Source: a virus
Direction: 5' to 3' (one strand)
Virus record (IMG/VR): IMGVR_UViG_3300027917_000193
Span: 1 to 21,050 of that record
DNA length: 21,050 nucleotides
This document shows, piece by piece, positions 1,817 through 21,050 of this stretch; positions within the stretch are counted from its first letter, which is position 1, and each line of letters begins with the position of its first letter. Both the position numbers and the translations under genes were made by a program. The notes under the pieces are model-generated. The model worked only from the letters and a program-made list of their open reading frames with translations, searched no databases and was not told where the DNA came from.

Positions 1817-2311
1817 ATGCACGTCGGTTCCATTTCATCGTTGATTTATCGAAAACCGTGGATCGTTCCGCATGCGATCCCATATTTGGAATCAATCATC
1901 CGGCCGCACCACAATGTTTTGGAATTCGGTTCCGGCGGTTCAACGTTGTGGTTTGCGGATCACGCGTTGGCCGTGGAGTCGATCGAACATTCGCGCGTTT
2001 GGCGAAATCGCGTGGCGGCCGCAATGACCGGCGACGATGACAAAAAAATCGAATTGCGATTGATCCCGAATTATTGCAAACACGACGAAATTAAATTGCG
2101 GCGGAAATATGACGTGATTTTCATCGATGGAATACACCGGCGGCAATGTTTCAAGGCGTCGATTGATCGGTTGGCCGACGGCGGAATTTTAATTGTCGAC
2201 AATTCCAACCGCGACGAAATCAAACCGATCCGCGATTCGTTGCGATGGCCGACAACGGCGTTTCGCGATGGCGGATGGTCAACGACATTTTGGTTTAAAC
2301 CGAGGAATTGA
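1817..2311 (+). CDS. Class I SAM-dependent methyltransferase
   Basis: The 164-residue protein shows the Rossmann methyltransferase pattern. Motif I is VLEFGSGGSTLWFA (about residues 34-47, the glycine-rich SAM site). YDVIFIDGIHRR and the strand GGILIVDNSNRDE correspond to later core motifs. It is close to the minimal fold with little added, resembling small methyltransferases often found beside sugar-modifying genes. The substrate cannot be read from sequence. It has a strong ribosome site (GCGGAGGGCG at 1804-1813). It ends at a TGA that runs directly into the first copy of the repeated 14-mer. It stands apart from the sugar/sulfate cassette, yet resembles a cargo gene placed before the packaging genes. 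Confidence 0.75.
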   Translation: MHVGSISSLIYRKPWIVPHAIPYLESIIRPHHNVLEFGSGGSTLWFADHALAVESIEHSRVWRNRVAAAMTGDDDKKIELRLIPNYCKHDEIKLRRKYDVIFIDGIHRRQCFKASIDRLADGGILIVDNSNRDEIKPIRDSLRWPTTAFRDGGWSTTFWFKPRN

Positions 2312-3366: not shown

Positions 3367-4634
3367 AAATCCGTGTTTCGGATTCGTTTTTTCCATTGTT
3401 GAAAAACACCGCGCGATATTTGATCATGTTCGGAGGCGGCGGTTCCGGCAAATCTGAATTCGCCGGTCGAAAGGTATTTTATCGATGCATAAACGAGGGC
3501 GGCCATCGGTTTTTGATTATGCGCAAAATCCGCAACCGGTTGGGCGGATCGGTGATCCGTGTTATGACGTCGATTTTGAACGAAAACCACGTTGCATATA
3601 AATTCAACCAATCGGATCGCGTGATCACGTTTCGGTCGCGGCGGAACGGCAAATTGAACGAATTGTTGTTCGACGGCCTTGACGATCCAGAAAAAATCAA
3701 ATCGATCAAGGATATTACAAACGTTTGGTTGGAGGAAACAACCGAATTCACCGAACGCGATTTCGAACAAATCAATTTGCGGTTGCGCGGCGAAACGCCG
3801 TTTTACAAACAAATTATGATGACGTTTAATCCGGATGAATCGGTCGGCAAATGGTTGAAAAACATGTTTGGCGTGACGCCAGGGAACGGCAAACGGCGCG
3901 GATCATTCGTGCATCAATCGACAATCGCCGACAATCCGATCGACGTTGTGCGCGCGGAATACACCGACATTTTGGATGAATTGACCGATCCGACCATGCG
4001 CGACATTTACCGTTTCGGATTATGGGCGAAACCGGCCGGTCAAATATTCGATTGGCCGGTGGTGCAATTGCCGGAATTTATGCGGTTCGACGAAATTTGG
4101 TACGGTTTGGATTTTGGTTTTTCCGTCGATCCGGCCGCGTTGGTCAAGATATACCGAAAAGCGGATCACGTTTGGTTGCAAACGTTGATATATGAAACCA
4201 AATTGACGAACGATCAATTGGCCGAAAAAATCATCGATTCCGGTTACGAATATCCGGCCGAAATTTATGCGGATTCGGCGGAACCGAAATCGATTGCGGA
4301 AATTGCCGCATACCGTGGCGCCGGAGGGGAAAAAATCAACATCAAACCGGCGGCCAAGGGCGCCGACTCCGTGCGTGCCGGTTTGAAATTCATGGCCGGT
4401 TTAAAAATCCACATAATCGACACGCCGGATGAATTGACGTGCGATCCGTTGGAGGATGAAACCGCATCATACAAATGGAAAACCGATAAAAACGGCGAAA
4501 CATTATCGGTTCCGGTCGATCGCGAAAATCATGCGGTCGACGGTTCGCGTTATGGTTTATTTACGCATTTAAAGGCGCGGCGGCGCGGTTATGTGTCGGC
4601 GTCGACCAATTTTTATGACAACATCGACATTTAA
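3363..4634 (+). CDS. terL: Terminase large subunit (ATPase and nuclease)
   Basis: The 423-residue protein has the two-part layout of the large terminase that pumps DNA into the prohead and cuts it. The ATPase part shows Walker A GGGGSGKS (residues 24-31), Walker B VWLEE (121-125) and a coupling motif MMTFNP (152-157). The RNase H-like nuclease part shows three acidic positions: YGLDFGF (Asp 250), IYADSAEPKS (Asp 304) and NHAVDGSRYG (Asp 393). It resembles the Terminase_3 (PBSX/SPP1-like) group and has a normal length. It starts with ATGA overlap, so it is translationally coupled to terS. It looks intact. Confidence 0.95.
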   Translation: MKIRVSDSFFPLLKNTARYLIMFGGGGSGKSEFAGRKVFYRCINEGGHRFLIMRKIRNRLGGSVIRVMTSILNENHVAYKFNQSDRVITFRSRRNGKLNELLFDGLDDPEKIKSIKDITNVWLEETTEFTERDFEQINLRLRGETPFYKQIMMTFNPDESVGKWLKNMFGVTPGNGKRRGSFVHQSTIADNPIDVVRAEYTDILDELTDPTMRDIYRFGLWAKPAGQIFDWPVVQLPEFMRFDEIWYGLDFGFSVDPAALVKIYRKADHVWLQTLIYETKLTNDQLAEKIIDSGYEYPAEIYADSAEPKSIAEIAAYRGAGGEKINIKPAAKGADSVRAGLKFMAGLKIHIIDTPDELTCDPLEDETASYKWKTDKNGETLSVPVDRENHAVDGSRYGLFTHLKARRRGYVSASTNFYDNIDI

Positions 4635-7982: not shown

Positions 7983-9065
7983 ATGAAATCAACAATATTC
8001 AAAAATTGGGATTGGTCGAAATTCGATCCGAAAAATACCGAACATCGCAAGATGTTATCGGCGCGCATGCAATATTTTTGTGCGTTGCCGGATCGGTATG
8101 TGCCGGAACGTTTTTCGAAGGTGCAGGAATTCATCGTCGACAAGGCCGGTTACACCGCCGAACATGCGGCGATGATCAATTCGAAAATTCAGGAATTCAC
8201 AACCACCGGCGATTTTCCGGCATCCATTTTGCCGGTCATCGAAAAATTCCACGCCACGCCGCATTATGACACCGGTTATGAGGAAATATTCGACATCCGC
8301 GATTTTTCCGGATCACGTCGAAACGGTTTCGAAATGTCGGACGTGACAAGCGGATTGACGTTCGAAATTATACCGAACGGAAAAAAGGCCAAGGTTTATC
8401 AGTTTTCCGGAACCAAACAAACCGTGTATTTTCACAAATACGCCGGTGCGCTGAATTGGGATCGGCAGTTATTCGACGACATGGAATATTGGACAATCGA
8501 GGACAACGCCGTTGCGTTCCGGAACGCCGCATATTCGCATCGCGCATCGGTTTATTACGCGCTATTGGAGGCGGCCGCCGCGACCAAGGCGTGCATTTCG
8601 TTGACCGATCCAGGTTGCGACGACAACCTTTGTTCCAAAACCGCCGTGGCGTGGGCGACGGCATTAAACACCGCCGCGCAAACGATCCTTTTGGCCGTGC
8701 GAAACAAAGGTTACGGTGTGACGCCGCAAAACGCGTCGTTCGTCATTTTAACTCCGATTCAGTTGACCGGATTGATGCGTCAAGCGCTCGACGTCAATTT
8801 ACAGGCGTTTTCCGGTTCGGAACGTCACATCAATTATAATTTCCGGATCGTGTCAACGATGATGTTGGCGAACACATCGCAGGTCATCGTCGCATTGCCG
8901 AAAATCAAAATGAAAGGCGGTTACCGCATGGATTTGACCATTTTTTCGGATTTCGACATTTTATCATACGTCGACACCGAGGCCGGATGGATGCGGTTTG
9001 GCGGCGCGATCGGCGACACCGATCAAATCGAGTGCATCGACTCCACGTTGCCGTCGGGATTTTAA
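7983..9065 (+). CDS. Major capsid protein (HK97-fold, by position and length)
   Basis: The 360-residue protein is encoded after the scaffold and decoration genes and is followed by a strong terminator, as expected for the most abundant virion protein. The N-terminus is helical and lacks a long delta domain, in keeping with a separate scaffold. The central part (GFEMSDVTSGLTFEIIPNG then VYQFSGTKQTVYF) and the C-terminal part (VIVALPKIKMKGGYRMDLTI then FSDFDILSYVDTEAGWMRFG) look like the strand-rich P and A domains. An unusual cluster of three Cys lies at residues 204, 212 and 217. The ribosome site is AAAGGA in an A-rich leader. I do not recognise a close named relative. Confidence 0.8.
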   Translation: MKSTIFKNWDWSKFDPKNTEHRKMLSARMQYFCALPDRYVPERFSKVQEFIVDKAGYTAEHAAMINSKIQEFTTTGDFPASILPVIEKFHATPHYDTGYEEIFDIRDFSGSRRNGFEMSDVTSGLTFEIIPNGKKAKVYQFSGTKQTVYFHKYAGALNWDRQLFDDMEYWTIEDNAVAFRNAAYSHRASVYYALLEAAAATKACISLTDPGCDDNLCSKTAVAWATALNTAAQTILLAVRNKGYGVTPQNASFVILTPIQLTGLMRQALDVNLQAFSGSERHINYNFRIVSTMMLANTSQVIVALPKIKMKGGYRMDLTIFSDFDILSYVDTEAGWMRFGGAIGDTDQIECIDSTLPSGF

Positions 9066-9132: not shown

Positions 9133-9903
9133 ATGGCAAAAACATTGTCCGACCGATACGTTCAAACCGGCGATGCGGCCGTTCGCGAACGCATCCGCAA
9201 AAAAATGGAAAACGAACGATTCCGGAAAGATTGGAATCGGCCGTTGAACGGCAACAAAAAACCATTGATCGAAATTTTAAAGGATGGCGCATGGAAAAAC
9301 GAACCGTGTTTTTTGATCGGCGGAGGGCCGTCATTGCGCGGATTCGATTTCGAACGTTTGCGCGGCGCCGGTCGCGTGATCGCGATAAACAAGGCGTTCA
9401 TGGACGCGCCGTTTGCCGACATGTTGTTTTCAATGGATCACCGTTTTTATAATTGGTTGCGGATCGGAATCAACAAAAACATGGTCGGCGCCAAACAAAA
9501 ATTTGCCGAATTCCAGGGAATCAAATGTTGGTTGGACATTAACAATTCATTTTATGACGGAATTTATTTCGTTGTCGGCAAACGCGGCGGCGACATGGCG
9601 GTTTCGTTGGAGGATGGAATTCCGCCAGGGAACAATTCAGGTTATGCGGCAATCCAAATCGCGATGGTTTTGGGGTGCGATCCGATTTATTTATTAGGTT
9701 ACGACATGAATCACGACAACGGCGTTTCACATTATCACGGCGGTTATCCGATCGCACAACGCGAAATCACCGTTGTTCGTTTTCGACATAAATTTGAACG
9801 TGTGGCCGACCGGATTTTGGCGCGCACGCATGTTTACAATTTGAATCCGAATTCGGGATTGCGTTGTTTTCCGTTCAAAACAATCGACGAGGTTTTGAAA
9901 TGA
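9133..9903 (+). CDS. DUF115/MptE-like GGGPSL protein, probable sugar transferase
   Basis: The 256-residue protein carries FLIGGGPSLRGFDFERLRG (residues 60-78), RVIAINKAFMDAPFADMLFS (81-100) and MDHRFY. Later it has NNSGYAAIQIAMVLGCDPIY (167-186) and LLGYDMNH. This is the pattern of the DUF115/MptE-like superfamily, which includes flagellin-modifying Maf proteins and resembles sialyltransferase-type folds. It probably transfers or handles an activated sugar, but the substrate is not visible. It opens the glycan cassette. The ATG directly follows a terminator and has no Shine-Dalgarno, so its expression (read-through, leaderless message or internal promoter) is unclear. It overlaps the next ORF by ATGA. 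Confidence 0.75.
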   Translation: MAKTLSDRYVQTGDAAVRERIRKKMENERFRKDWNRPLNGNKKPLIEILKDGAWKNEPCFLIGGGPSLRGFDFERLRGAGRVIAINKAFMDAPFADMLFSMDHRFYNWLRIGINKNMVGAKQKFAEFQGIKCWLDINNSFYDGIYFVVGKRGGDMAVSLEDGIPPGNNSGYAAIQIAMVLGCDPIYLLGYDMNHDNGVSHYHGGYPIAQREITVVRFRHKFERVADRILARTHVYNLNPNSGLRCFPFKTIDEVLK

Positions 9904-10076
9904 AAATCGGCAAAAATACGATCCTGATATTTCATCGCGAAATATTCCGGCGCCGGAAATTTTGGCGTTTCGATCGTGGCATATGGCCGCACAATAAACG
10001 GTGGTCGCCGCCGATTTTTAAATATAGGAATTTTGGGCCGTTTGAAATTCGAATTCATTTGGAGGGCGAAAAATGA
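9900..10076 (+). CDS. Small basic aromatic-rich protein in cassette
   Basis: The 58-residue protein is unusually rich in Arg, Lys, Phe and Trp (IFHREIFRRRKFWRFDRGIW). It overlaps both neighbours by ATGA. It starts MKIG, like the glycosyltransferase at 10857, and both proteins later have GPF followed by an alternating Ile pattern. This could mark it as a remnant or short relative of that protein's N-terminus, but the resemblance is weak. The final LEGEK is encoded by the next gene's ribosome site. No family is recognised. It could bind nucleic acid or membrane, or be a non-functional spacer that keeps translation continuous. Confidence 0.5.
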   Translation: MKIGKNTILIFHREIFRRRKFWRFDRGIWPHNKRWSPPIFKYRNFGPFEIRIHLEGEK

Positions 10077-10654
10077 ATTATGTAATCACATCGTATTTCA
10101 CGCCGTCATATGCGCACGTGGCCGACAAGTATTTGAAACCATCGTTGCGCGAATTGTCGGTTCCAAATCACATTTCATTGTTATCCGATCGCGGCAATTG
10201 GCAATCGAACACATTGTTCAAGGCCAATTTTATTTCGCGCATGATGATCAAATATCCGGAAAAGGGAATTGTGTTCGTGGACGCCGATGCGGTGATCCGC
10301 GCGGAACCGGTTTTGTTTGATCAATTGTTCATCGACGGCATTGATTTTGCGGCACACCGGCGCACGTGGCGCCGTGGCCGGATCAAGGATGAAATGTTGT
10401 CGGGAACGTTGTATTTTGGGCCGACCGAGGCCGCGCGCATTTTGGTCAATGCATGGATCGACGAAAACAAGGCGCATCCAACCAAATTGGAACAACGGAA
10501 TTTGGAGGCCGCGTTTGATGCGGTTTCGGAATATCCCTTGGTTTGGAAATGGTTGCCGGTTGAATATTGCACCGTGTTTGATGGCGACGACCGGCCGAAA
10601 AATCCGGTGATCGAACATTTCCAGGCGTCACGGAAAATGCGGCGGAAACGGTGA
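10073..10654 (+). CDS. GT-A type glycosyltransferase with DxD motif
   Basis: The 193-residue protein starts MNYVITSYFTPSY. It has GIVFVDADAVIRAEPVLFDQ at about residues 65-84, in which VDAD (Asp 70, Asp 72) is a metal/nucleotide-sugar DxD site. It then has MLSGTLYFGPT (108-118), EQRNLEAAF and WKWLPVEYC. This is the outline of small GT-A fold nucleotide-diphospho-sugar transferases. It probably adds one sugar to a glycan made by the cassette; sugar and acceptor are unknown. A strong TTGGAGGGCG ribosome site precedes it. It overlaps the next ORF by GTGA. Confidence 0.75.
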   Translation: MNYVITSYFTPSYAHVADKYLKPSLRELSVPNHISLLSDRGNWQSNTLFKANFISRMMIKYPEKGIVFVDADAVIRAEPVLFDQLFIDGIDFAAHRRTWRRGRIKDEMLSGTLYFGPTEAARILVNAWIDENKAHPTKLEQRNLEAAFDAVSEYPLVWKWLPVEYCTVFDGDDRPKNPVIEHFQASRKMRRKR

Positions 10655-10857
10655 ACAACAAAAAAATGAAACCGTCGGAAATCCGCGCGTTGATTGGCCG
10701 TGCGATCGAATCGTTCAATGCCAATCCGCGCCAAATGACCGGCGACGTTTTCACGCGCCGCGAATTGCGGATTTTGGAATCACGCGGCATTGTCCGATCG
10801 TACACGATGCGGCAACCGTCATCCGGCCAAGTCAAACGCATGTGGACATTGATTTAA
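10651..10857 (+). CDS. Small protein, possibly winged-helix-like
   Basis: The 68-residue ORF starts at GTG 10651, overlapping the previous stop (GTGA); ATG 10666 is the alternative start. It is basic and mostly helical, and ends in a possible wing: FTRRELRILESRGIVRSYTM followed by QVKRMWTLI. The layout of helices then a hairpin resembles small DNA-binding domains, but no clear family is visible. It overlaps the next gene's ATG through TAATG. It may be regulatory within the cassette, though this is weakly supported. Confidence 0.5.
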   Translation: MNNKKMKPSEIRALIGRAIESFNANPRQMTGDVFTRRELRILESRGIVRSYTMRQPSSGQVKRMWTLI

Positions 10858-11795
10858 TGAAAATTGGAATCCGCCGCATATTATGGCCGAAATTAAAGGA
10901 ACGGCCGAAAACGGAATATTTGTTGCATGGTTTCCTGAAAACCGGATTGTTCGTCAAAAAATGTGGTGGTTTTCATCGCAAATGGCGTTTGCCAGGAAAC
11001 CATTTGGGGCCGTTTATTTATCCGATCCAAATCGATTTCAATGTGGCCGGTAAAATCAAACCGGTCATTGTGTGGTTTGACACATTTCCGAATCCGGATA
11101 AATTTTTTTTGAATTTCAAAAAACCGGATGATTTTTATTTCAAAACGCATGTTCGAAAAAAACAATTATCGGAAAACAAGCGCATTTTCGTCATGCCGAA
11201 TTCAGGTTCACGCATGCATTTTTTGGACAAAATTGCGGACATGCGCGCGATTGCCGGAGGGATGGCAACAACGAACGTTCCAATTGTCGATTTTTTCGGA
11301 GTGTTTCGGAACGATCACGAATCGCGTTTGGCGGTGGTCAAACACGTGGTCGATTCCGGCAAATATTCCGCGATTATGGGCGTTCACAATTTGCACGGCG
11401 AACGCGTGACCGATGATCGATATTTCAATCCACGATTGGAATATGACGCGCATTGTCGCGTCGCGGCGCGTGCGCGGTTCGCCGTCGCCCTCCCTGGCGG
11501 CCGCGCCGCGCCGTATTGTTCATTTCGACATGTCGAATTTTGGGCGTTCGGCGCAACGTGCATGTCGTTCGATCCGGATTGCGCATTACCAGGGAATCCC
11601 GATCCGCACGAAATCATGGTGATTTTCAAACCGGATTTGTCGGATTTCGATTCGGTCGCGGAATACTATTTAAAACGCGCCGATGAGCGCGCCAGGATCG
11701 CGCACAACGGCCAAACGTATTTCGACGAATACTTGGCGCCGGTCAAACATGCCGAATGGATTATAAACCACGTGATCGAAAGGGAATTCAAATGA
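10857..11795 (+). CDS. Exostosin/GT90-like glycosyltransferase
   Basis: The 312-residue protein has a C-terminal half like exostosin-, GT90- or CAP59-type transferases: ARFAVALPGGRAAPYCSF, RHVEFWAFGATCMSFDPD, and a terminal stretch (FDSVAEYYLKRADERARIAH then NGQTYFDEYLAP) that matches the helix closing GT-B domains. The N-terminal half (MKIGIRRILWPKLK) is basic and aromatic. ATG 10857 overlaps the previous stop in TAATG; a GTG at 10842 would add five residues. It probably transfers a sugar in the same pathway as its neighbours. Donor and acceptor are unknown. Confidence 0.65.
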   Translation: MKIGIRRILWPKLKERPKTEYLLHGFLKTGLFVKKCGGFHRKWRLPGNHLGPFIYPIQIDFNVAGKIKPVIVWFDTFPNPDKFFLNFKKPDDFYFKTHVRKKQLSENKRIFVMPNSGSRMHFLDKIADMRAIAGGMATTNVPIVDFFGVFRNDHESRLAVVKHVVDSGKYSAIMGVHNLHGERVTDDRYFNPRLEYDAHCRVAARARFAVALPGGRAAPYCSFRHVEFWAFGATCMSFDPDCALPGNPDPHEIMVIFKPDLSDFDSVAEYYLKRADERARIAHNGQTYFDEYLAPVKHAEWIINHVIEREFK

Positions 11796-12493
11796 ATGAT
11801 TTGGTGAAAGTTATTTTGCCGTCATGTTCAACCGAACGTTTGCCAATGTTAATTCGCACGTGCGGAACGGTCATGGCGCAAACACATCAACGCACGAAAC
11901 CGTTGGTTGTGGCCGACGGCAATGTTGAAATTTTCAATGCAATTCGAAATTTGGATTTGTGTGCGTTATTTAACGAAACACGACGTGATTGGATTTATTC
12001 GATAAACCGCGTGGTCGCAACGGTGCCGTCGGATTTTTATGTTTACGCCTCCGATGATTTGATTTTTGATCCGGATTGCATCAAAAACGCAATGGCCGTC
12101 ATGCGGAACAAATTTCCGGATGGCGATGGCGTGGTTTCGATCCGGCAAATCCTTGAACGTGAAAAAGGTTGTTCGACGGCATTTGGAATGTTCGGAACAA
12201 AATTCGCCGATCGGTTCCCGAACCGCGCCGTTTTTTGTCCTGATTATGTGCATTATTATTCCGACGCGGAATTGGGGCGCGTGGCGGCCGCGTTGAACCG
12301 GTTGGCGCATTGCGAAAACGCCACGGTCAAACATTCACGGCCGCGCGATGAAACATGGAGATTGGCGCACACGGTATTGAATCGCGACAAAACGGTGCGC
12401 CAGGATCGCCGCAAACGCGGTTTCGAATGGGGATTGGATTTCGAATTGATGTCAAAATCGCCAAAAACACATGTTGACCACGCAAAACCATGA
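11792..12493 (+). CDS. GT2-like glycosyltransferase
   Basis: The 233-residue protein has a GT-A fold outline: VKVILPSCSTERLPMLIRTC near the N-terminus, VVADGN at about 39-44, and SDFYVYASDDLIFDPDCIKN (80-99), in which ASDDL is the acidic metal-binding motif. A His/Asp-bearing stretch (FCPDYVHYYSDAELG) follows. It lacks the C-terminal membrane segments of processive GT2 enzymes, so it probably adds single sugars in the cytoplasm. The start is ATG 11792, behind AAAGGGA and overlapping the preceding stop by ATGA. Base composition matches the rest of the phage. Confidence 0.7.
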   Translation: MNDLVKVILPSCSTERLPMLIRTCGTVMAQTHQRTKPLVVADGNVEIFNAIRNLDLCALFNETRRDWIYSINRVVATVPSDFYVYASDDLIFDPDCIKNAMAVMRNKFPDGDGVVSIRQILEREKGCSTAFGMFGTKFADRFPNRAVFCPDYVHYYSDAELGRVAAALNRLAHCENATVKHSRPRDETWRLAHTVLNRDKTVRQDRRKRGFEWGLDFELMSKSPKTHVDHAKP

Positions 12494-12550
12494 AAACGGC
12501 GCCGTGTAACGCCATATAAAGGCCGAACGCAAGGCGGCCAATGGTACGAC

Positions 12551-13402
12551 ATGCATAAAACGATCGCGTTTCCACACCGCGCCGCAACGAAATATTATCA
12601 ATCGCATTGGATGGCGTTTTCGATTGCGGCCAAACATGCCGATTGGAACGTTCAATTGTATGACATGCCGCGCCGTGACAAGCGCGGTTTCATTGTGAAA
12701 TCGAACGGCGTTCGTATATTGATCGATCACGGCGATTTGAAAACATTGGCGGTCGATGTCGACGATTTCAAATTGTGTTTTAAATACCATTGGAACGAAC
12801 AACATTGTTCCGACCGGCCGAATGTGCATCCGTGGTCACCGATCACGTTTTATAATTGGTTCGAATTCGACGAATTGCGTCGGAAATTTGAAACCGATTT
12901 CATGTCGCATCCGCATCCGCGTGTTCGGATCGCGGCAAACCAAATCCCATATGCCGGTGCGCGATCGCGGCGGTTGCGTGTTCACGACATGTTGCGGCGC
13001 GAATTCGGAAAACGCGTCGACACGAAAATCAAGGAACAAAAAACATTTTGGCGGCATGCATACGGCGCCATGTGTGCCGTGTGCGTTCCTGGCCAACGAA
13101 ACGACATATTGGATCGCGGCCAATTACAATTGATGGCGTTTGGCGTTCCGACGGTTTCGCCGAAATTGTCGACCGTATTGCCGGATGGTGTATCGCCGGT
13201 TCCTGGCCGCCATTATTTTCAATGCCGGTCGGATTATTCCGATTTGATCGACGTGGTAAAATACATCGATGCGAATCCGGAACACGCGCGGAGGATCGGC
13301 AATGCGGCGCGATCCATGTTCAACCGGAATTGTTTGCCGGAAATTTTAATGTTTCATTTTTTTTCGAAATTATATGCGGTGGTGAAAAATGCCATTTCCT
13401 GA
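12551..13402 (+). CDS. GT-B fold (GT4-like) glycosyltransferase
   Basis: The 283-residue protein resembles the nucleotide-sugar-binding half of GT-B enzymes: MCAVCVPGQRNDILDRGQLQ (174-193) then LMAFGVPTVSP (194-204) and LPDGVSPVPGRHYFQC (210-225). A closing helix follows (DLIDVVKYIDANPEHARRIG, 231-250). The usual acidic residue of GT4 is not obvious, so the mechanism may vary. The leader 12494-12550 has no good Shine-Dalgarno. It contains a weak hairpin (GGCCG/CGGCC at 12521-12525 and 12535-12539). The gene overlaps the sulfotransferase by 14 bases, so the two are probably co-translated. Confidence 0.7.
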   Translation: MHKTIAFPHRAATKYYQSHWMAFSIAAKHADWNVQLYDMPRRDKRGFIVKSNGVRILIDHGDLKTLAVDVDDFKLCFKYHWNEQHCSDRPNVHPWSPITFYNWFEFDELRRKFETDFMSHPHPRVRIAANQIPYAGARSRRLRVHDMLRREFGKRVDTKIKEQKTFWRHAYGAMCAVCVPGQRNDILDRGQLQLMAFGVPTVSPKLSTVLPDGVSPVPGRHYFQCRSDYSDLIDVVKYIDANPEHARRIGNAARSMFNRNCLPEILMFHFFSKLYAVVKNAIS

Positions 13403-14102
13403 TTTTATGATTATCGGCGCGTCGCGATCCGGCACGTCGTCGTTGTTTTTGAATTTATGCCAACATCCGCAAATATTGAAACCATCATACAAGGAACCGC
13501 ATTATTTCGACAACCACATTGCGAAAGGCGATGCGTGGTATTTCGGCATGTTCCCAACGACAAATCGGATTCAATTGACATTTGAGGCCACGCCGAATTA
13601 TTTATACCATGCAAACGCGCCGGAACGGATTTCGGATTTTGAAAAACGGCACGCATTGGAATTGCGGTTCATTGTTATGTTGCGAAATCCGATCAATCGC
13701 ACGTGGTCGCATTTTTGCCATTGCAAAAACCGCGTCAACGCGCACAAATTAGAGGTTGCAATTTCGAAATCGAGGCGGCAACCGTTTGTCGCAAAATCGG
13801 TTTACATCGACCAAATCGAACGATGGCAAAAACATTTCGACCGGTCAAAATTTTTGTTTATCCGATCGGAGGATTTTTATCGGGATTCGCGCGGCGTTTG
13901 CAGGGCCATTTTCCGTTGGTTGGGCGTCGATGAAATTGTGTTGTCGAAAATTAAATATTACGATCCGTGGAAACCAAACAATTTCAAAAAAACCAAATAC
14001 AAACAATGTCCGCCGGAATTGCGCCGCCGGTTGGCCGATTTTTTCGAACCGCACAATCGGCGATTATATGATTTCATGGGATTCGATTTTAATTGGGAAT
14101 AA
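13389..14102 (+). CDS. Sulfotransferase (heparan sulfate-type, PAPS-dependent)
   Basis: The 237-residue protein carries the full signature of PAPS-dependent sulfotransferases. The 5'-phosphosulfate loop is IIGASRSGTSSLF (8-20). KEPHYFD (35-41) and EATPNYLY (66-73) resemble the heparan-type N- and O-sulfotransferases. The 3'-phosphate site is RFIVMLRNPINRTWSHF (93-109, with Arg 99 and Ser 107). SVYIDQIERWQKHF then LFIRSEDFY (137-163) follows. Such enzymes move sulfate from PAPS to hydroxyl or amino groups, usually on sugars. It overlaps the GT-B gene by 14 bases. The phage would rely on host PAPS, since no PAPS-making gene is present here. The call is among the firmest in the cassette. Confidence 0.88.
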   Translation: MPFPDFMIIGASRSGTSSLFLNLCQHPQILKPSYKEPHYFDNHIAKGDAWYFGMFPTTNRIQLTFEATPNYLYHANAPERISDFEKRHALELRFIVMLRNPINRTWSHFCHCKNRVNAHKLEVAISKSRRQPFVAKSVYIDQIERWQKHFDRSKFLFIRSEDFYRDSRGVCRAIFRWLGVDEIVLSKIKYYDPWKPNNFKKTKYKQCPPELRRRLADFFEPHNRRLYDFMGFDFNWE

Positions 14103-14110
14103 ATTGGCCA

Positions 14111-14124
14111 CACAACATATTGTG
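14111..14124. repeat. 14-base inverted-repeat motif, copy 3
   Basis: The third exact copy of CACAACATATTGTG lies 8 bases after the first sulfotransferase stop. Its left flank AATTGGCCA resembles that of copy 1. A degenerate fourth copy follows about 42 bp downstream. Confidence 0.75.
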
Positions 14125-14153
14125 GCGCGCAGGATCCAATTTTTCAATGCGAC

Positions 14154-14165
14154 CGCAACATGTGG
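14154..14165. repeat. Degenerate copy 4 of the inverted-repeat motif
   Basis: CGCAACATGTGG looks like the 14-mer plus its trailing G with two bases lost and one changed. Its distance from copy 3 (about 42 bp) and its place just before the ribosome site match copy 2 in the 2313-2370 pair. Confidence 0.4.
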
Positions 14166-14189
14166 TATGGTTGAATTGGAGGGCGAAAA

Positions 14190-14831
14190 ATGAAAATCAT
14201 TGTGACCGGCATGCACCGATCCGGAACGTCGATGGTCGCCGGATTGTTGGGATTGTGCGGCGGATATTTGGGAAACAATTTGATTTCCGGATTGCGCGAC
14301 AATCCGAAAGGCCATTTTGAGGATCGCGAATTTGTGGCGATCAACGATTACATTTTGCGGAAAAACGGCGGTTCCTGGCGGAATCCTCCGGCCACGATCA
14401 CGGCCGTTCCGGTTCCGCGCATGCGGCGGTTTTTGGAAAAATGGCCGACCGACAAACCGGTTGTGTTGAAATGTCCGCGCGCATGTTTAACGTTGGGCGT
14501 TTGGCGGCAATTGATCCATGATCGCAATTTACAGGTTGTTTTTGTGGCGCGATCGGCAAATGAAATTTCCGAATCGTTGGCGGTTCGAAACAAAATTTCA
14601 CATGTCGAGGCAATGGACATTTATCACAAATACCGAAACGCGTTCATCAAAAACGTGACCGGCCGAAAATATGTGACGACGTTTTATGCCGGATATTTCG
14701 GCCAGGGGCCGATTCCCTGGCGCACCGAATTGGGGAAATTGTGCATTGCGGTCGGATTGAAAATGCCGATCGACATCGGCGAAATTCAGGATTTCGTTGA
14801 TCCAAAATTGAGGCATCATGTTGACCGATAA
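14190..14831 (+). CDS. Second sulfotransferase family protein
   Basis: The 213-residue protein has a P-loop-like 5'-phosphosulfate site TGMHRSGTSMVAGLLGL (6-22), VVLKCPRACL (91-100), and a 3'-phosphate site VVFVARSANEISESL (116-130, with Arg 121 and Ser 128). It belongs to a different branch from the first sulfotransferase, nearer the bacterial group found among glycan gene clusters. The two may act at different positions or on different acceptors. A strong TTGGAGGGCG ribosome site precedes it, after the second repeat pair. It overlaps the next gene by 14 bases. No truncation is seen. Confidence 0.8.
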   Translation: MKIIVTGMHRSGTSMVAGLLGLCGGYLGNNLISGLRDNPKGHFEDREFVAINDYILRKNGGSWRNPPATITAVPVPRMRRFLEKWPTDKPVVLKCPRACLTLGVWRQLIHDRNLQVVFVARSANEISESLAVRNKISHVEAMDIYHKYRNAFIKNVTGRKYVTTFYAGYFGQGPIPWRTELGKLCIAVGLKMPIDIGEIQDFVDPKLRHHVDR

Positions 14832-15393
14832 AAGATGGCCATTTGAATCGTCGGCGCGGTTGCGCCAAATTCAACGGTGTATTCCGGATTTGTTCGGTTT
14901 CAAATCCGTGTTGTATATCGGCGCCAACATGACGCGCATGCAATTCGTTCCGGTGTTCGTTGGTGCGGACATGATGATCGATGTCGTCGAAATCCACACG
15001 CCGAATGTGCGTGAATTGGAATCATTCAATGAACGAACGCGAATCGCCGGTCGCAAATGGTTTCGAAATATCATAAATGCCGACGTGCGCGACATTTGGA
15101 AATTGGATGAATTGTTGTCATACGACGTCGTGTTTTGGTGGCATGGGCCGGAACACGTGCCGTTGGAGGATTTCGAAAAAACAATGCGGTTGTTGGAACG
15201 TTTCGCGATCAAAATAATCGTGGCCGGTTGTCCCTGGGGAATTTACCACCAACCGGCGGTTCGCGACAATCCGCACGAAATCCATGTGTCGCATTTGACG
15301 CCGCGCCAATTCATAAACATCGGTTATACGACAAATACAATTGGACGCAAAAATGTTCGTGGATCGAACATCCTGGCGTGGAAACGAATTTAA
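14818..15393 (+). CDS. SAM-dependent methyltransferase-like protein
   Basis: The 191-residue protein has a Rossmann-like start (KSVLYIGANMTRMQF then DMMIDVVEIHTPN). It continues with LLSYDVVFWWHGPEHVPLED, then ERFAIKIIVAGCPWGIYHQP, and ends GSNILAWKRI. This layout matches small class I methyltransferases seen in glycan clusters. The glycine-rich motif is weak, so binding of SAM is inferred. It is co-translated with the second sulfotransferase through a 14-base overlap. It would fit as a sugar O-methyltransferase. Confidence 0.6.
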   Translation: MLTDKRWPFESSARLRQIQRCIPDLFGFKSVLYIGANMTRMQFVPVFVGADMMIDVVEIHTPNVRELESFNERTRIAGRKWFRNIINADVRDIWKLDELLSYDVVFWWHGPEHVPLEDFEKTMRLLERFAIKIIVAGCPWGIYHQPAVRDNPHEIHVSHLTPRQFINIGYTTNTIGRKNVRGSNILAWKRI

Positions 15394-15411: not shown

Positions 15412-15831
15412 ATGGCAAGTTATAACAAATTCAACATTTTCGTTTTGGATTTGGGATTGGCCGTGCATGATTTGTCGACCGGCGGCGATGATTTGTACCT
15501 GTATTTGACGAACAACACACCGGATGCGGAAAACGATGCGGTCAAGGCGGATTTGACCGGAATCACCGAACAAAACGGTTATGCGGCCGCCGATGCATTA
15601 AACGATTACACGCGCGTGACCACGACCGCAACGTTGACATGCACGACGAAACAATGGACGGCCGCCGCGGGATCGTTCGGGCCGTTTCAATATGTTGTGT
15701 TGTATAACGAAAACACGGCCGTCAAAACCGATCCGTTGATCGCGTGGTGGAATTATGGTTCATCGATCACGGTTTTGGACACGGAAACATTCACCGTGAC
15801 GTTTGGCGCGTCGGTGTTCACATTAACCTAA
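15412..15831 (+). CDS. Phage structural protein, candidate head/tail decoration
   Basis: The 139-residue protein is beta-rich and Thr/Asn-rich with few charges. Its C-terminal half (FGPFQYVVLYNENTAVKTDP then LIAWWNYGSSITVLDTETFT) resembles small virion proteins commonly encoded in head or tail-fibre regions of phages. No enzyme motif is seen. It has a strong ribosome site (TTTTGGAGG). It follows the glycan cassette and begins the second structural block. Confidence 0.6.
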   Translation: MASYNKFNIFVLDLGLAVHDLSTGGDDLYLYLTNNTPDAENDAVKADLTGITEQNGYAAADALNDYTRVTTTATLTCTTKQWTAAAGSFGPFQYVVLYNENTAVKTDPLIAWWNYGSSITVLDTETFTVTFGASVFTLT

Positions 15832-15860
15832 TTTTGATTCATTGGGAGGGCGAGAAAAAA

Positions 15861-16049
15861 ATGCATCAAAAAACATACGCCGTCGGGAACGTCAAACCAT
15901 GTTGCAAAAATCCGAAAAATCGATTCGTGGTACACCGCGACGAAACCAACCAAACCGTCGTGGAAAAATGCGGCATTTGCAACGCGCATCATTATCGCAT
16001 GAACGCCGATCCGATATTGTTCGGCGTGGATGGAAAACCGATCGGATAA
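15861..16049 (+). CDS. Small Cys-rich, zinc-ribbon-like protein
   Basis: The 62-residue protein has two Cys pairs, KPCCKNPKNR and KCGICNAHHYRM, the arrangement of a small zinc ribbon. Similar small proteins are scattered in phage structural regions; their role is unknown. ATG 15861 follows GGGAGGGCGAGAAAAAA and is preferred over an in-frame extension to 15744 that overlaps the previous gene. Confidence 0.65.
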   Translation: MHQKTYAVGNVKPCCKNPKNRFVVHRDETNQTVVEKCGICNAHHYRMNADPILFGVDGKPIG

Positions 16050-16051
16050 TA

Positions 16052-16288
16052 ATTCAGCGCGTCGGATCGTGCCGCAAATGCGGATTTTGTTGTCCGCCAA
16101 CGTGCGAACATTTCGTTGACGGTTTGTGTTCGATCCACGAAACAAAACCGGATTCATGCGCACGCGCGCCGGAATTCCCCATGCGGAAATGGAATCCGGA
16201 TTGCGGATTTCGTTTTTTCACAACAACGGCCGACGGTGTAAAATTGGAAATTTTTGCGATGCAATGCGGACAACCAACGGATAAATAA
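16052..16288 (+). CDS. YkgJ-like Cys-cluster protein, start uncertain
   Basis: The frame encodes GSCRKCGFCCPPTCEHF, DGLCSIHETKPDSC and NPDCGFRFF, the Cys spacing of YkgJ-like putative iron- or zinc-binding proteins (about 78 residues). No ATG, GTG or TTG lies in frame between the previous stop and the first Cys. The start is either a rare ATT/ATA codon at 16046-16054, or ATG 15968 well inside the preceding gene. The 3' end overlaps the next gene by TAATG. It and the zinc-ribbon gene may function as a pair. Confidence 0.55.
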   Translation: MQRVGSCRKCGFCCPPTCEHFVDGLCSIHETKPDSCARAPEFPMRKWNPDCGFRFFTTTADGVKLEIFAMQCGQPTDK

Positions 16289-18327
16289 TGGCAACGCGTT
16301 TTTATTTACCATCGACCGGCACGCCGTCGATTTCACCGTCATTCGACGCGTTATGGGATCAAACGACGGCCGCCGATCGCCGCGAAATGGTGACGACGAA
16401 AATTTCGTCGGCGTTCACCACCAAATCGGATTCGGAAACAAGCGGATCGGTCATCGAGGTTTTGTTGCGGCAATATATTTCCGCCGCACGGTATGACGCA
16501 TATTCGTTTTCCGGCACCGACACGTGGAAATTGCAAATCCGTTGTTTGGAGTCATCCGTGCAAGCGGATTTTTATTTATACATCATCGCCAAGGTCATCC
16601 AAAACGACGGCACGGTTCGCGGAACGTTGATTTCGGCCGTTGTTGACACAACGGAAATCACGCATGTTGAATTGACGAATCGCGGCATGGCCGGATCATG
16701 CCAATCGGTTTCATTGCAGGATGGCGACCGGATTTTGTTGGAAATCGGTTTTCAGGCGCAAAACACGAAATCGAATTCATACACCGCAACAATGGATTTC
16801 GGCGACAATTCCGGAACCGATTTGCCGGAGGATGATTCCACCGTCACGCAATACAACGCGTGGTTCGAATTGTCGCCAACGTTGTCCGAATATTCCGGCG
16901 CATACAACATCGACGCCGATCCGGATTCATACGCGATCGCCGCGCCGGTTGACACAACATTGCAATGGGGCCGCAAGGTCGCGGCCGGTTCCGATTCATA
17001 CGCGATCACCGGCACGGCGGCAACATTAAAGCGCGGATATAAAATCACGGCCGAACCGACGTCATATTCAATATCCGGAACCGCCGTTGATTTGACGCGC
17101 GATGCGAAATTGACGGCCGATCCGGATTCGTATTCAATCGTTGGTTCCGACGCCGGATTGAAATTCGGCCGGAAAATCGCGGCCGATCCGGATTCGTATT
17201 TGGTTTCCGGTCAAACCGTTGATTTGACGCGCGGCCGACAATTGCCGTTGGAGTCGGATTCCTATTCCATCACCGGCGCGGATGTCACGTTGTCATATTC
17301 TGGCGACGCCAAGGAAATCGAGGCCGATCCGACATCATATTCGATCACCGGTTCCGACGTCGGTTTGAAACATGACAAAAAAATCACCGCCGGTTCGGAT
17401 TCATATTCGATTTCGGGACAAAATGCCGATTTAACGCGAACGGCCGAAATGACGGCCGATCCAGGCGCATATTCAATCACCGGAACCGATGTCGATTTGA
17501 CGCATGACAAAAAAATCACGGCCGAAACCGTCGCATATAATTTGACCGGCACGGCCGCCGCATTAAAACACGATAAAAAAATCGTGGCCGGTGCCGATTC
17601 GTATTTGATCACCGGTTCCGATGTGACGTTGGATTATTCCGGCGGCGCCAAACAAATCGACGCCGATCCAGGCACATATTTGATCACCGGATCGGATGCA
17701 ACGTTGACGCGCGGCCGCCAATTCACGGCCGAGCCGGATTCATATGCAATTTCCGGCGCCGCCGCAACATTGACGCGTGGCCGACAATTTACCGCCGAAT
17801 CCGGTTCGTATGCAATTTCCGGCACGGCGGCCGGTTTGACGCACGACAAAAAAATCGTTGCGGAATCCGATTCGTATTCGATTACAGGATTCGACGCCAC
17901 GTTGGATTATTCCGGCGCCGGTTCCAAATCGATCAACGCCGAGGGCGGAACGTATGCGATCACCGGATCGGACGTTTCGTTAAAACATGACAAAAAGATT
18001 GTCGCCGGCGCCGGCGTTTATTTGTTGACCGGCACGCCGTCGGATTTATCAAAGGGATTCACGATTGCGGCCGAATCCGGATCATATGCCGTGACCGGCC
18101 AGGACACAACGTTAAAACGAACATATGCGATCGCGGCCGATCCTGGCGCGTATGTGATCGTTGGGTTTGCGGCAACGTTGTCATATACCGGCGCGGAGGT
18201 TTATTCGGTTCCGGCGGTCGGTTGGTTGCAAAAACAACAAACCGTCGTTGGCCATTTGCAAATAAACGCGACGATCGTTGGCCGGTTGCAACCGCCAAAA
18301 TCCATCAAGGGGAAAATATACCGATGA
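16288..18327 (+). CDS. Large tandem-repeat virion protein (679 residues)
   Basis: The protein has an N-terminal domain of about 212 residues, then about 19 tandem units of roughly 22 residues, then a short C-terminal tail with WLQKQQTVVGHLQINAT. A typical unit reads DSYAITGTAATLKRGYKITA. The conserved positions are an acidic residue or Gly, then Ser/Tyr, a hydrophobic-x-Gly and a Leu. Proteins with this repeat type occur in other phages, usually without assigned function; fibre or surface roles are likely. The repeats offer many Ser, Thr and Tyr residues that the neighbouring glycosyl- and sulfotransferases could modify, which is inference. It starts in TAATG overlap and ends in ATGA overlap. 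Confidence 0.75.
   Translation: MATRFYLPSTGTPSISPSFDALWDQTTAADRREMVTTKISSAFTTKSDSETSGSVIEVLLRQYISAARYDAYSFSGTDTWKLQIRCLESSVQADFYLYIIAKVIQNDGTVRGTLISAVVDTTEITHVELTNRGMAGSCQSVSLQDGDRILLEIGFQAQNTKSNSYTATMDFGDNSGTDLPEDDSTVTQYNAWFELSPTLSEYSGAYNIDADPDSYAIAAPVDTTLQWGRKVAAGSDSYAITGTAATLKRGYKITAEPTSYSISGTAVDLTRDAKLTADPDSYSIVGSDAGLKFGRKIAADPDSYLVSGQTVDLTRGRQLPLESDSYSITGADVTLSYSGDAKEIEADPTSYSITGSDVGLKHDKKITAGSDSYSISGQNADLTRTAEMTADPGAYSITGTDVDLTHDKKITAETVAYNLTGTAAALKHDKKIVAGADSYLITGSDVTLDYSGGAKQIDADPGTYLITGSDATLTRGRQFTAEPDSYAISGAAATLTRGRQFTAESGSYAISGTAAGLTHDKKIVAESDSYSITGFDATLDYSGAGSKSINAEGGTYAITGSDVSLKHDKKIVAGAGVYLLTGTPSDLSKGFTIAAESGSYAVTGQDTTLKRTYAIAADPGAYVIVGFAATLSYTGAEVYSVPAVGWLQKQQTVVGHLQINATIVGRLQPPKSIKGKIYR
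16924..18222 (+). repeat. Tandem coding repeat, about 19 units of 66-78 bases
   Basis: Most units are 22 codons. Units 6, 11, 15 and 19 are longer (25-26 codons) and carry a YSG- or YTG-type insertion before the next unit, giving a second-level period of four to five units. Units 12-13 (about 17671-17810) are nearly identical, which suggests recent duplication. Confidence 0.85.
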
Positions 18328-18700: not shown

Positions 18701-19186
18701 ATGGCGATTGGATGGTTGGTTGATTTGCCGGAGGCGGATTCATATTTCAACGACGAAAGGTTGGAACGTTCCGCATGGGATAACATATCAAATGACGTGG
18801 ACAAAACCGCGTGTTTGATGAACGCGTACAACCGGATTTTCTATCACGACGACACGAACGTTCCGGCATCCGGATCGGAAACCGCCGCGCAACGCGTTTA
18901 TTTGATCAAGGCGCAATGTGAAATGGCCGCATATTTGGTCGACCATTTGGCCGACGAGGATCGGCGAAAAGGTTTACAGGCGCAAGCGGTAACCGACGCC
19001 GGAATCGTCAAGGAAAAATATGACAAGGATAAATTGTACGATTTGCCGTTGCCGCCGTTTGTGATCGCGATTTTGAAAAAGGCCGGTTTTATTAAACAAC
19101 AACGGTTTTTTGCGACCAACGTTGAACGCGATGAGGATTACGGCGTCAACCAATCGATTGATGCATACGACGATTTGGGCGAATAA
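18701..19186 (+). CDS. Head-tail connector (gp6/DnaT-like) protein
   Basis: The 161-residue protein is mostly helical and resembles small adaptors that dock under the portal: LPEADSYFNDERLERSAWDN, KTACLMNAYNRIFY, AAQRVYLIKAQCEMAAYLVD. It has a strong ribosome site (GAGGTGAT). It ends in TAATG overlap with the minor head gene. It restarts the head-tail connection series interrupted by the cassette. Confidence 0.75.
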   Translation: MAIGWLVDLPEADSYFNDERLERSAWDNISNDVDKTACLMNAYNRIFYHDDTNVPASGSETAAQRVYLIKAQCEMAAYLVDHLADEDRRKGLQAQAVTDAGIVKEKYDKDKLYDLPLPPFVIAILKKAGFIKQQRFFATNVERDEDYGVNQSIDAYDDLGE

Positions 19187-20106: not shown

Positions 20107-20414
20107 CAACATCACAAATACGGTCATATTTGAATCAAAAAATCACATTGAAACGCGGCAAGGCGCCGGATGAATACGGCGAACCGAACGAACCATTGTC
20201 GTTCGATTTGAGGGCGCGCGTTGATTGGGAAAACAAGGTGATCGTCGACAATTACGGAAAAGAGGTCGCATCGATCGCGCTCATATTGGTGGTTTTCGAT
20301 TCCACGATCACATATGACGACGTTTTCACGATCGACGGCCGCGATCATGCAATCGTGCAAATCAACCGCGTTCAAGATTTTTCAGCAAACCATTGGGAAA
20401 TCCGGATTCGATAA
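20103..20414 (+). CDS. Head closure / head-tail joining protein (SPP1 gp16-like)
   Basis: The 103-residue beta-barrel-like protein contains LNQKITLKRGKAPDEYGEPN, SFDLRARVDWENK, TITYDDVFTIDGRDHAIVQI and ends HWEIRIR. This is the typical outline of the small head-tail joining family. These proteins close the portal channel and receive the tail. It overlaps both neighbours (ATGA and TAATG). Confidence 0.8.
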   Translation: MTTSQIRSYLNQKITLKRGKAPDEYGEPNEPLSFDLRARVDWENKVIVDNYGKEVASIALILVVFDSTITYDDVFTIDGRDHAIVQINRVQDFSANHWEIRIR

Positions 20415-20656
20415 TGGCAAAATCAGGGATCGTTGTTGACACAAAGGAATTTGATGCGGATTTCAAGCGCATTGTGAACCATGCGATCCCTGAATTGCGC
20501 GAAAAGGGAATGTGGAACGCCGCGTGGGAATTGTTGGCCGATTCCGACGACGTTGTGCCGCAAACACCGTTCGGCGATCGATCGACCGGCGTTGGCGCAC
20601 GTGGAGGCGCGAAAAAAGGCGGTGGTGATTTGCGCGGATCGGCCAAGGTTGAAATT
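20414..20656 (+). pseudogene. HK97 gp10-like tail/head-completion gene, 3' part lost at junction
   Basis: The first 81 codons look like the HK97 gp10-type family: helical N-terminus (DTKEFDADFKRIVNHAIPEL), then VVPQTPFGDRSTGVGARGG and GDLRGSAKVEI, the usual place where the family continues. Such proteins act in joining head and tail. Beyond codon 81 the frame stays open but encodes RecN. The start ATG 20414 overlaps the previous stop in TAATG. The true downstream part and the tail genes are missing from this window. Confidence 0.7.
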
Positions 20657-20662
20657 GAAGAG
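20651..20662. other. Phage-to-bacterial composition junction
   Basis: Left of this interval the sequence follows the phage's word rule (AG followed by G, CT preceded by C). Right of it the rule ends abruptly. The bases GAAATTGAAGAG could belong to either side, so a short microhomology is possible. The join is in frame by chance or through the shared Glu-rich coding. Confidence 0.75.
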
Positions 20663-21050
20663 GCGGCCCTCATGCTAAGGGACTTGCAGAATGAAATCCA
20701 AATTAATCCCGCTAGGCTGGAGCAGGTTGAAGAAAGATTACAACTCCTAAAACGGTTAAAGAAGAAATACGGACAAAGCCTCGATGAGGTCATATCCTTT
20801 AAGGACGGACTGTCCATTGAGATCCAGGGGCTGGATCAAAAGGAAAAGAAGTTAAAGGACTTAGAGGCAGAGCTCCATGCTCTAAGGATGGAGGTCCTGG
20901 AAAAAGCACATAAACTTTCCCATAAACGACACCAGGTGGCTGACAAACTTACCGGGGCATTGGAAGCGGAGTTGGTCCTGCTGGACATGAGAGGAACGCG
21001 TCTTAGCCTTCTCTTTCAGAACGAAAGCGGACCCAGGGAGGAGAACTTGA
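20657..21050 (+). CDS. recN: Internal fragment of bacterial DNA repair ATPase RecN
   Basis: The frame reads EEAALMLRDLQNEIQINPAR then LEQVEERLQLLKRLKKKYG, DEVISFKDGL, RMEVLEKAHKLSHKRHQVAD, LVLLDMRGTRLSLLFQNESG. This matches the coiled-coil and inner region of RecN, the SMC-like protein for double-strand break repair (NPxRLxxxEERLxLLKxLKKKYG is characteristic). Neither the Walker A nor the C-terminal ATPase part lies in the window; the frame runs off the right edge. Codon and word use differ sharply from the phage: CTC, CTA, CTT, CAG, AGA and AGC are common. It is bacterial chromosome, probably joined artificially. Confidence 0.9.

Follow-up and report, generated by a model that had tools for sequence, protein, structure and literature searches.

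Phage-encoded glycosylation of the virion is already known, while a capsid-linked, exchangeable cassette that includes sulfotransferases of the heparan-sulfate type is new. Such a cassette occupies positions 9133-15393 of the IMG/VR virus record IMGVR_UViG_3300027917_000193, which was analysed over its entire 21,050 bases (positions 1 to 21,050, hereafter the window), and on balance the block appears to make a sulfated, methylated glycan of the virion from host precursors. In descriptions of mycobacteriophage virion glycosylation (Che8 and its relatives), glycosyltransferases are likewise phage-encoded, capsids carry glycans (Freeman 2023, cited in PMC11256854), and glycans of both capsid and tail have been proposed to act as a shield (PMC11256854, PMC12619734). 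According to the same descriptions, however, the glycosyltransferase genes of mycobacteriophage Maravista are found close to the 3' end of its genome, whereas those of the window are locked behind the gene for the major capsid protein (MCP); the window set additionally comprises a methyltransferase besides two sulfotransferase-type proteins, and it is swapped between relatives. The Chlorella virus PBCV-1 also encodes a pathway that, as described, glycosylates its major capsid protein at least in part, and two glycoproteins are ascribed to phage XacN1 in the same source (PMC5852040). PBCV-1 infects a eukaryotic alga and is not a tailed phage, and it is likened to the window by description rather than by comparison of enzymes.

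Among cultured phages, the head operon of Pseudomonas phage D3 (orf6-orf7-orf9; locus L175) carries a gene of the PHROG 4603 type at 3612-4070, flanked by the major head gene and the head-tail adaptor, as the window cassette does with its first gene, but in D3 this gene is single and is followed by no glycosyltransferase/sulfotransferase set. An annotated methyltransferase is present in D3 a few genes beyond the sialyltransferase-like gene. Single phage-borne Sulfotransfer_3 genes, their function called unclear, have been reported for the marine OM43 phages and S-SRM01, for which the excerpted text describes no capsid-linked glycan cassette (PMC10580990). Titles and abstracts in the literature yielded no direct precedent for phage systems joining a sialyltransferase to a capsid, or adenosine 5'-phosphosulfate (APS) kinase to sulfotransferases. 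No description of sulfated sugars on a phage was found in the literature, and to our knowledge such sugars on a bacterial virus are new.

The first gene and the set that follows it

The block consists of ten open reading frames (ORFs), all on the plus strand, whose junctions mostly overlap by 4-40 nt, with gaps of 57 and 87 nt. Its left neighbour is the MCP gene (7983..9065, plus strand; Pfam Phage_capsid_4, E=1e-9), the profile of which matches 47 ORFs across the loci fetched for comparison. A first-pass annotation of the window had placed ten tightly packed genes between the capsid and connector genes; the number, strand and extent of these genes were confirmed, whereas the connectors proved not to be directly adjacent, as three more ORFs (15412-18327), structural or unknown, precede the head-tail adaptor. 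Family or fold placement was reached for eight of the ten ORFs, two small ORFs remaining without assignment, and profile searches together with structure models put most of the genes in families of sugar, sulfate or methyl transfer, as had been anticipated.

The first gene of the cassette (9133..9903) encodes a putative sialyltransferase (GT42)/MptE-like transferase that matches PHROG 4603, 'alpha-2,3-sialyltransferase', with E=7.1e-31. Its identification as MptE, a 6-hydroxymethylpterin diphosphokinase, was rejected, since the score against the Pfam MptE-like family PF01973 (E=4.5e-6, 27 bits) falls under the gathering cut-off of 34.6 and the match to the sialyltransferase-like PHROG is much the better one. 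The motifs GGGPSL and GxNSG...PIYLxGxD are invariant across five close relatives, and the best matches in the PDB are CstII sialyltransferases (E ~0.01), reached through two separate short motifs. A relative of this protein is encoded by phage XacN1.

Portal- and capsid-based scans gathered the relatives of the window, a large family of uncultured phages whose portal and capsid identities are mostly 40-60%. In all 33 related loci (L numbers below) in which an MCP gene is followed by 900 bases or more, a 9133-type gene lies 3' of that MCP gene; it was found by profile in 32 loci and by tblastn in the last, L119. The two genes overlap or lie within ~190 nt of one another in 27 of the 33 and are separated by 411-744 nt in the other six, and the loci represent 28 MCP clusters at 90% identity and 17 at 70%. 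Additionally, the 9133-type domain is found fused to other transferases: to a GT-A glycosyltransferase of the 10073 type, named after the window gene at 10073..10654, in L098, L151, L109, L097 and L104; to GT9 in L095 and L105; and to GT2 in L100. In L098 (9716-11674) and L151 (7402-9366) a GT29-like sialyltransferase domain is joined as well, giving three-domain proteins behind the capsid gene. Because of these GT-A, GT29-like, GT9 and GT2 partners, the 9133-type gene is taken to work with glycosyltransferases, and as judged from sequence the fusions indicate a joint function.

The closest counterpart of the entire block is found in two 40-kb IMG/VR contigs, L090 and L093, which count as one independent lineage as their MCPs cluster at 90%. 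Both carry, in order, a 9133-type gene, a cupin, 10073, 10842, GT2, the first and second sulfotransferases, a rhamnosyltransferase-like gene, a 14818-type methyltransferase and a second methyltransferase, and the set in L090 runs directly into the head-tail adaptor and connectors. Identity between cassette genes of the window and those of L090/L093 is 34-43%. Since the same order and the same flanking head genes recur in separately assembled contigs, the block is real phage DNA and not a bacterial locus joined by misassembly.

Elsewhere in the family, the genes behind the 9133-type gene are replaced. Among 116 downstream ORFs of relatives, some of which are structural genes, Glycos_transf_2 (19), methyltransferase domains, cupins (10) and Nucleotid_trans (4) are the most frequent families, alongside some epimerases and FkbM methyltransferases. 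L085 carries a radical-SAM/B12 protein. Genes are also exchanged one at a time: the closest counterparts of window genes 10073 and 11756 are those of L098/L151, whereas 10842, 13389 and 14818 have matches in L090/L093 alone, and for 14190 these two are joined by L158. By these comparisons, a multi-enzyme glycan cassette behind the capsid gene is the rule in this family, with its contents swapped after a conserved first gene. A set of this kind had been thought unusual among phages, a view that does not hold within the family but does hold for its sulfation part, as Sulfotransfer_1 was detected in only 2 of 20 relatives tested; by this measure, sulfation is the uncommon module.

Enzymes of the cassette

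From motifs, the first-pass annotation had proposed transferases of several folds, two sulfotransferases and a methyltransferase. Pfam and orthologues substantiated the former as a GT-A enzyme with DxD, a GT-B-type protein, a GT2 enzyme and a weak GT-B candidate, and structural matches did the same for the methyltransferase; of the two sulfotransferases, one was established by Pfam and by its match to a heparan-sulfate (HS) 3-O-sulfotransferase (3-OST), whereas the other, with no Pfam match, was placed tentatively, by fold only.

The GT-A type glycosyltransferase (10073..10654) carries a DAD (DxD) motif, both aspartates of which are invariant in 12 relatives. While this protein has no Pfam match itself, its L090 orthologue scores above the cut-off for Nucleotid_trans (PF03407), and 17 related ORFs occur in the fetched loci. 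The GT-B type glycosyltransferase-like protein (10842..11795) matches Glyco_trans_1_2 above the cut-off (E=5e-7); its orthologues among the fetched loci are those of L090/L093, and no match was found in cultured phages. Profile searches of the PDB with 10073 and 10842 returned no match. The GT2-family glycosyltransferase (11792..12493), at the cut-off for Glycos_transf_2, was called as an ORF from 11756, but its true start is probably 11792, which gives an ATGA overlap. Its L090 orthologue matches Glycos_transf_2 with E=2.9e-11, and a profile of 11 relatives finds heparosan synthase B (E=2.8e-7) and also chondroitin synthase in the PDB. A further protein (12551..13402) is a probable, weakly supported GT-B glycosyltransferase, with Glyco_trans_1_2 below the cut-off (E=0.029), and phmmer pairs it with the 10842-type protein encoded by L093 (E=0.002); no orthologue was found in the fetched loci.

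The first sulfotransferase, ST1 (13389..14102), is assigned to the HS 3-O-sulfotransferase/NDST branch of enzymes dependent on 3'-phosphoadenosine 5'-phosphosulfate (PAPS) (Sulfotransfer_1, E=3e-13). Its profile aligns with HS 3-OST-3A1 (1t8t/1t8u) over nearly the full length (profile positions 19-256, E=2.6e-31), and the 5'-phosphosulfate-binding loop (5'-PSB, GASRSGTSSL), the KExHFFD catalytic region and the 3'-phosphate-binding element (3'-PB, RNPINRTWS) are all aligned. In contrast to the HS 3-OSTs and the sulfotransferase domain of NDST, ST1 is a cytosolic phage protein without a membrane segment. The motif residues are conserved in the L090/L093 orthologues; as a lone query, ST1 found no match in the viral contig collection or in cultured phages. 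The second protein, ST2 (14190..14831), is tentatively assigned to the sulfotransferase fold through an AlphaFold2 model (pLDDT 81.5), for which Foldseek returned PAPS sulfotransferases with TM up to 0.60 (retinol dehydratase and TPST2, each with bound PAP, together with Teg12/14 and STF9), mixed with adenylate and shikimate kinases. A P-loop of the GMHRSGTS type is conserved in ST2. No Pfam match to Sulfotransfer_1, 2 or 3 was obtained, its L090 orthologue stays below the cut-off for Sulfotransfer_3 (E=0.0018), and the PDB profile search gave chance matches only.

Two unrelated contigs, L181 and L182, hold relatives of ST1 as well. Specifically, positions 945-8120 of L181 (IMGVR_UViG_3300018080_002664; 49 kb, a phage as judged by eye from tape-measure-like and tail genes) encode an APS kinase (E=9.6e-54) as well as three sulfotransferases, together with a large GT-B/GT2/Capsule_synth protein and a GT-A of the 10073 type, and in the 12.4 kb of L181 that were searched no match to the capsid, portal or 9133 profiles of the window family was found. 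L182 is a partial counterpart of L181. Sulfotransferases and a 10073-type GT-A are therefore combined in two phage lineages, once together with PAPS synthesis. In 12 relatives of the window the APS kinase family was not found, and these phages would therefore depend on PAPS from the host. The earlier expectation that precursors come from the host agrees with this for sulfate but needs correction for sugars, as some relatives carry a sugar-nucleotide enzyme (the epimerase/GDP_Man_Dehyd-like gene of L083).

The last gene of the block (14818..15393) encodes a class I S-adenosylmethionine (SAM)-dependent methyltransferase. Its AlphaFold2 model (pLDDT 73.4) has 452 PDB matches at E<=0.001, and nearly all of the 50 listed are methyltransferases or their homologues, so that the model predicts a Rossmann-type class I SAM methyltransferase fold; a PDB profile search gave no match. 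An orthologue occupies the same place in L090/L093. A further gene, of the Methyltransf_24 type, lies outside the block, 5' of the terminase (1817..2311, plus strand; Pfam E=1.6e-5, just below the cut-off). It has a homologue at L151:12223-12753, in relatives a gene like it lies within the cassette, and in L090 a 163-aa gene that resembles it by eye follows the 14818 orthologue.

The two small ORFs have no Pfam or PHROG family. The first (9900..10076; 58 aa from ATG 9900) occupies a slot filled by a cupin in L090/L093 and many other relatives, while no relatives of the second (10651..10857; 68 aa) were found in the fetched loci. None of the cassette proteins was found to contain a membrane segment, the maximal 19-residue hydropathy being 1.43.

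Flanking genes and contig quality

The block is preceded by genes for the small and large terminase subunits, the portal (assigned through portal relatives), further head proteins, head decoration and the MCP, and is followed by structural or unknown genes, the head-tail adaptor, a minor capsid-like protein and connectors. The head-tail adaptor (18701..19186, plus strand; PHROG 477 head-tail adaptor, E=0.011) has relatives in 12 loci, where it lies 3' of the cassette and forms the right boundary of the variable region. Soon after the window cassette, 16288-18327 encodes a 679-aa protein with many copies of a ~24-residue 'DPDSYSITG' repeat and a Ser+Thr content of 23%; no relatives were found in the fetched loci, and it is a possible head fibre or glycan acceptor. 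The preceding gene (15842-16288) contains a cysteine cluster, CRKCGFCC...C...C, that by eye resembles YkgJ-type metal-binding proteins. Near the left end, 406-918 encodes a Sigma-70 region 4/ECF-like protein, which possibly serves late transcription.

The start of the final ORF (20393-21049) resembles a tail-completion protein, and from residue 83 onwards the ORF matches RecN (TIGR00634, E=2.9e-23), an in-frame join spanning ~20640-21050. Because its relatives are without the RecN part, the last ~400 bases of the contig, which lie outside the block, are most likely chimeric. Only one genome contig was matched, of 20.8 kb and binned with a Candidatus Aminicenantes metagenome-assembled genome; this match was judged too weak to name the host, since a phage contig may be misbinned.

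A proposed glycan on the virion and the alternatives

In the mechanism that on balance is preferred, the cassette is probably expressed late, together with the capsid gene, and the 9133-type enzyme probably forms the core of the pathway by priming or recognising a virion protein. The acceptor is most likely the major capsid or head decoration protein, candidates being the MCP (7983), the decoration protein (7561) and the Ser/Thr-rich repeat protein (16288-18327). The GT-A, GT-B and GT2 enzymes would then lengthen the glycan, the two sulfotransferases would sulfate it with host PAPS and the methyltransferase would cap it, with assembly taking place in the cytosol on the virion protein. Particles would thus acquire a surface that is sulfated and methylated and that changes in structure between phages by exchange of the downstream genes. 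Consistent with such a mechanism, glycosyltransferase genes are co-located with structural genes, as expected of phage virion glycosylation, and the D3 arrangement and the precedents of mycobacteriophages and of XacN1 point the same way; we infer in which order the enzymes act, which donors they use, that sulfate is added and what the phage gains, be it shielding or altered adhesion.

Several points weigh against a virion glycan. Firstly, the argument is drawn from gene position, and late operons also carry morons of other roles. Secondly, the likeness of 9133-type proteins to solved sialyltransferases is confined to short motifs, the predicted ST2 fold is shared in part with kinases, and 12551 and the two small ORFs lack firm placement. 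Additionally, within the family the sulfation set is so far seen in just one other lineage, that of L090/L093.

The alternative that survives best, though it is unlikely, is that the cassette alters the surface of the host cell through a sulfated or methylated capsule or lipopolysaccharide glycan, thereby blocking superinfection or changing a receptor. Bacterial surface glycan loci typically hold GT2/GT-B/sulfotransferase sets, and in L181 a Capsule_synth domain lies beside the sulfotransferases. Set against this, the lack of membrane segments leaves no gtr-type flippase or lipid-carrier transferase in the cassette, and the position is tied to the capsid gene rather than to early or lysogeny genes. 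Tyrosine integrase (PF00589) was not found in 18 relatives (serine integrases were not searched for), which makes lysogenic conversion improbable, and a serotype-conversion (gtr) cluster was rejected on these grounds. The virion is favoured over the host surface for three reasons: the cassette stays next to the capsid gene, its proteins have no membrane segments, and no tyrosine integrase was found in these relatives.

Somewhat less probable still is a collection of independent morons that share no product and act individually on different small molecules or proteins. The separate reassortment of the genes described above would suit such a collection; the order shared with L090/L093, the tight overlaps and the transferase fusions argue instead for one pathway. 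There is little to recommend the idea that the enzymes hypermodify phage DNA, yielding glycosylated, methylated or sulfated bases that withstand restriction. DNA-hypermodifying phage glycosyltransferases are known (Pyle 2024, cited in PMC12619734), and glycosylation and sulfation of nucleotides in phage systems are mentioned in PMC10829341. However, the genes lie between head genes, their homologues, among them HS 3-OST and the GT29-like enzymes, are transferases that act on proteins or glycans, and the thymidylate synthase/deoxynucleoside monophosphate hydroxymethylase family (PF00303) that would support hypermodification is absent from 12 relatives of 34-49 kb in which controls were detected, the window itself being a fragment; DNA hypermodification was rejected accordingly. 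Finally, an assembly artefact that fused bacterial glycan genes with a phage contig is scarcely credible, for although one contig end is chimeric from ~20640, base composition across the block is even and synteny with L090/L093, at ~40% identity, rules such an artefact out.

If the block does build a virion glycan, a broader but tentative picture may be drawn, in which a widespread group of uncultured phages carries a 'glyco-locus' that is linked to the capsid gene, exchangeable and comparable to the O-antigen loci of bacteria, where a conserved priming enzyme is combined with strain-specific extending and capping enzymes such that particles differ in surface 'serotype'. Sulfated particle glycans would be one product of such loci, sulfation having perhaps emerged in two or more lineages of phages, of which one makes PAPS with an APS kinase of its own. 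With one conserved capsid-adjacent gene and naturally exchanged downstream sets, the locus offers a simple system in which to ask what phages gain from glycosylating their particles, and it supplies compact sulfotransferases of the heparan-sulfate branch. If true, this would help to explain some of the phage 'auxiliary metabolic' sulfotransferase genes whose role has been described as unclear (PMC10580990).

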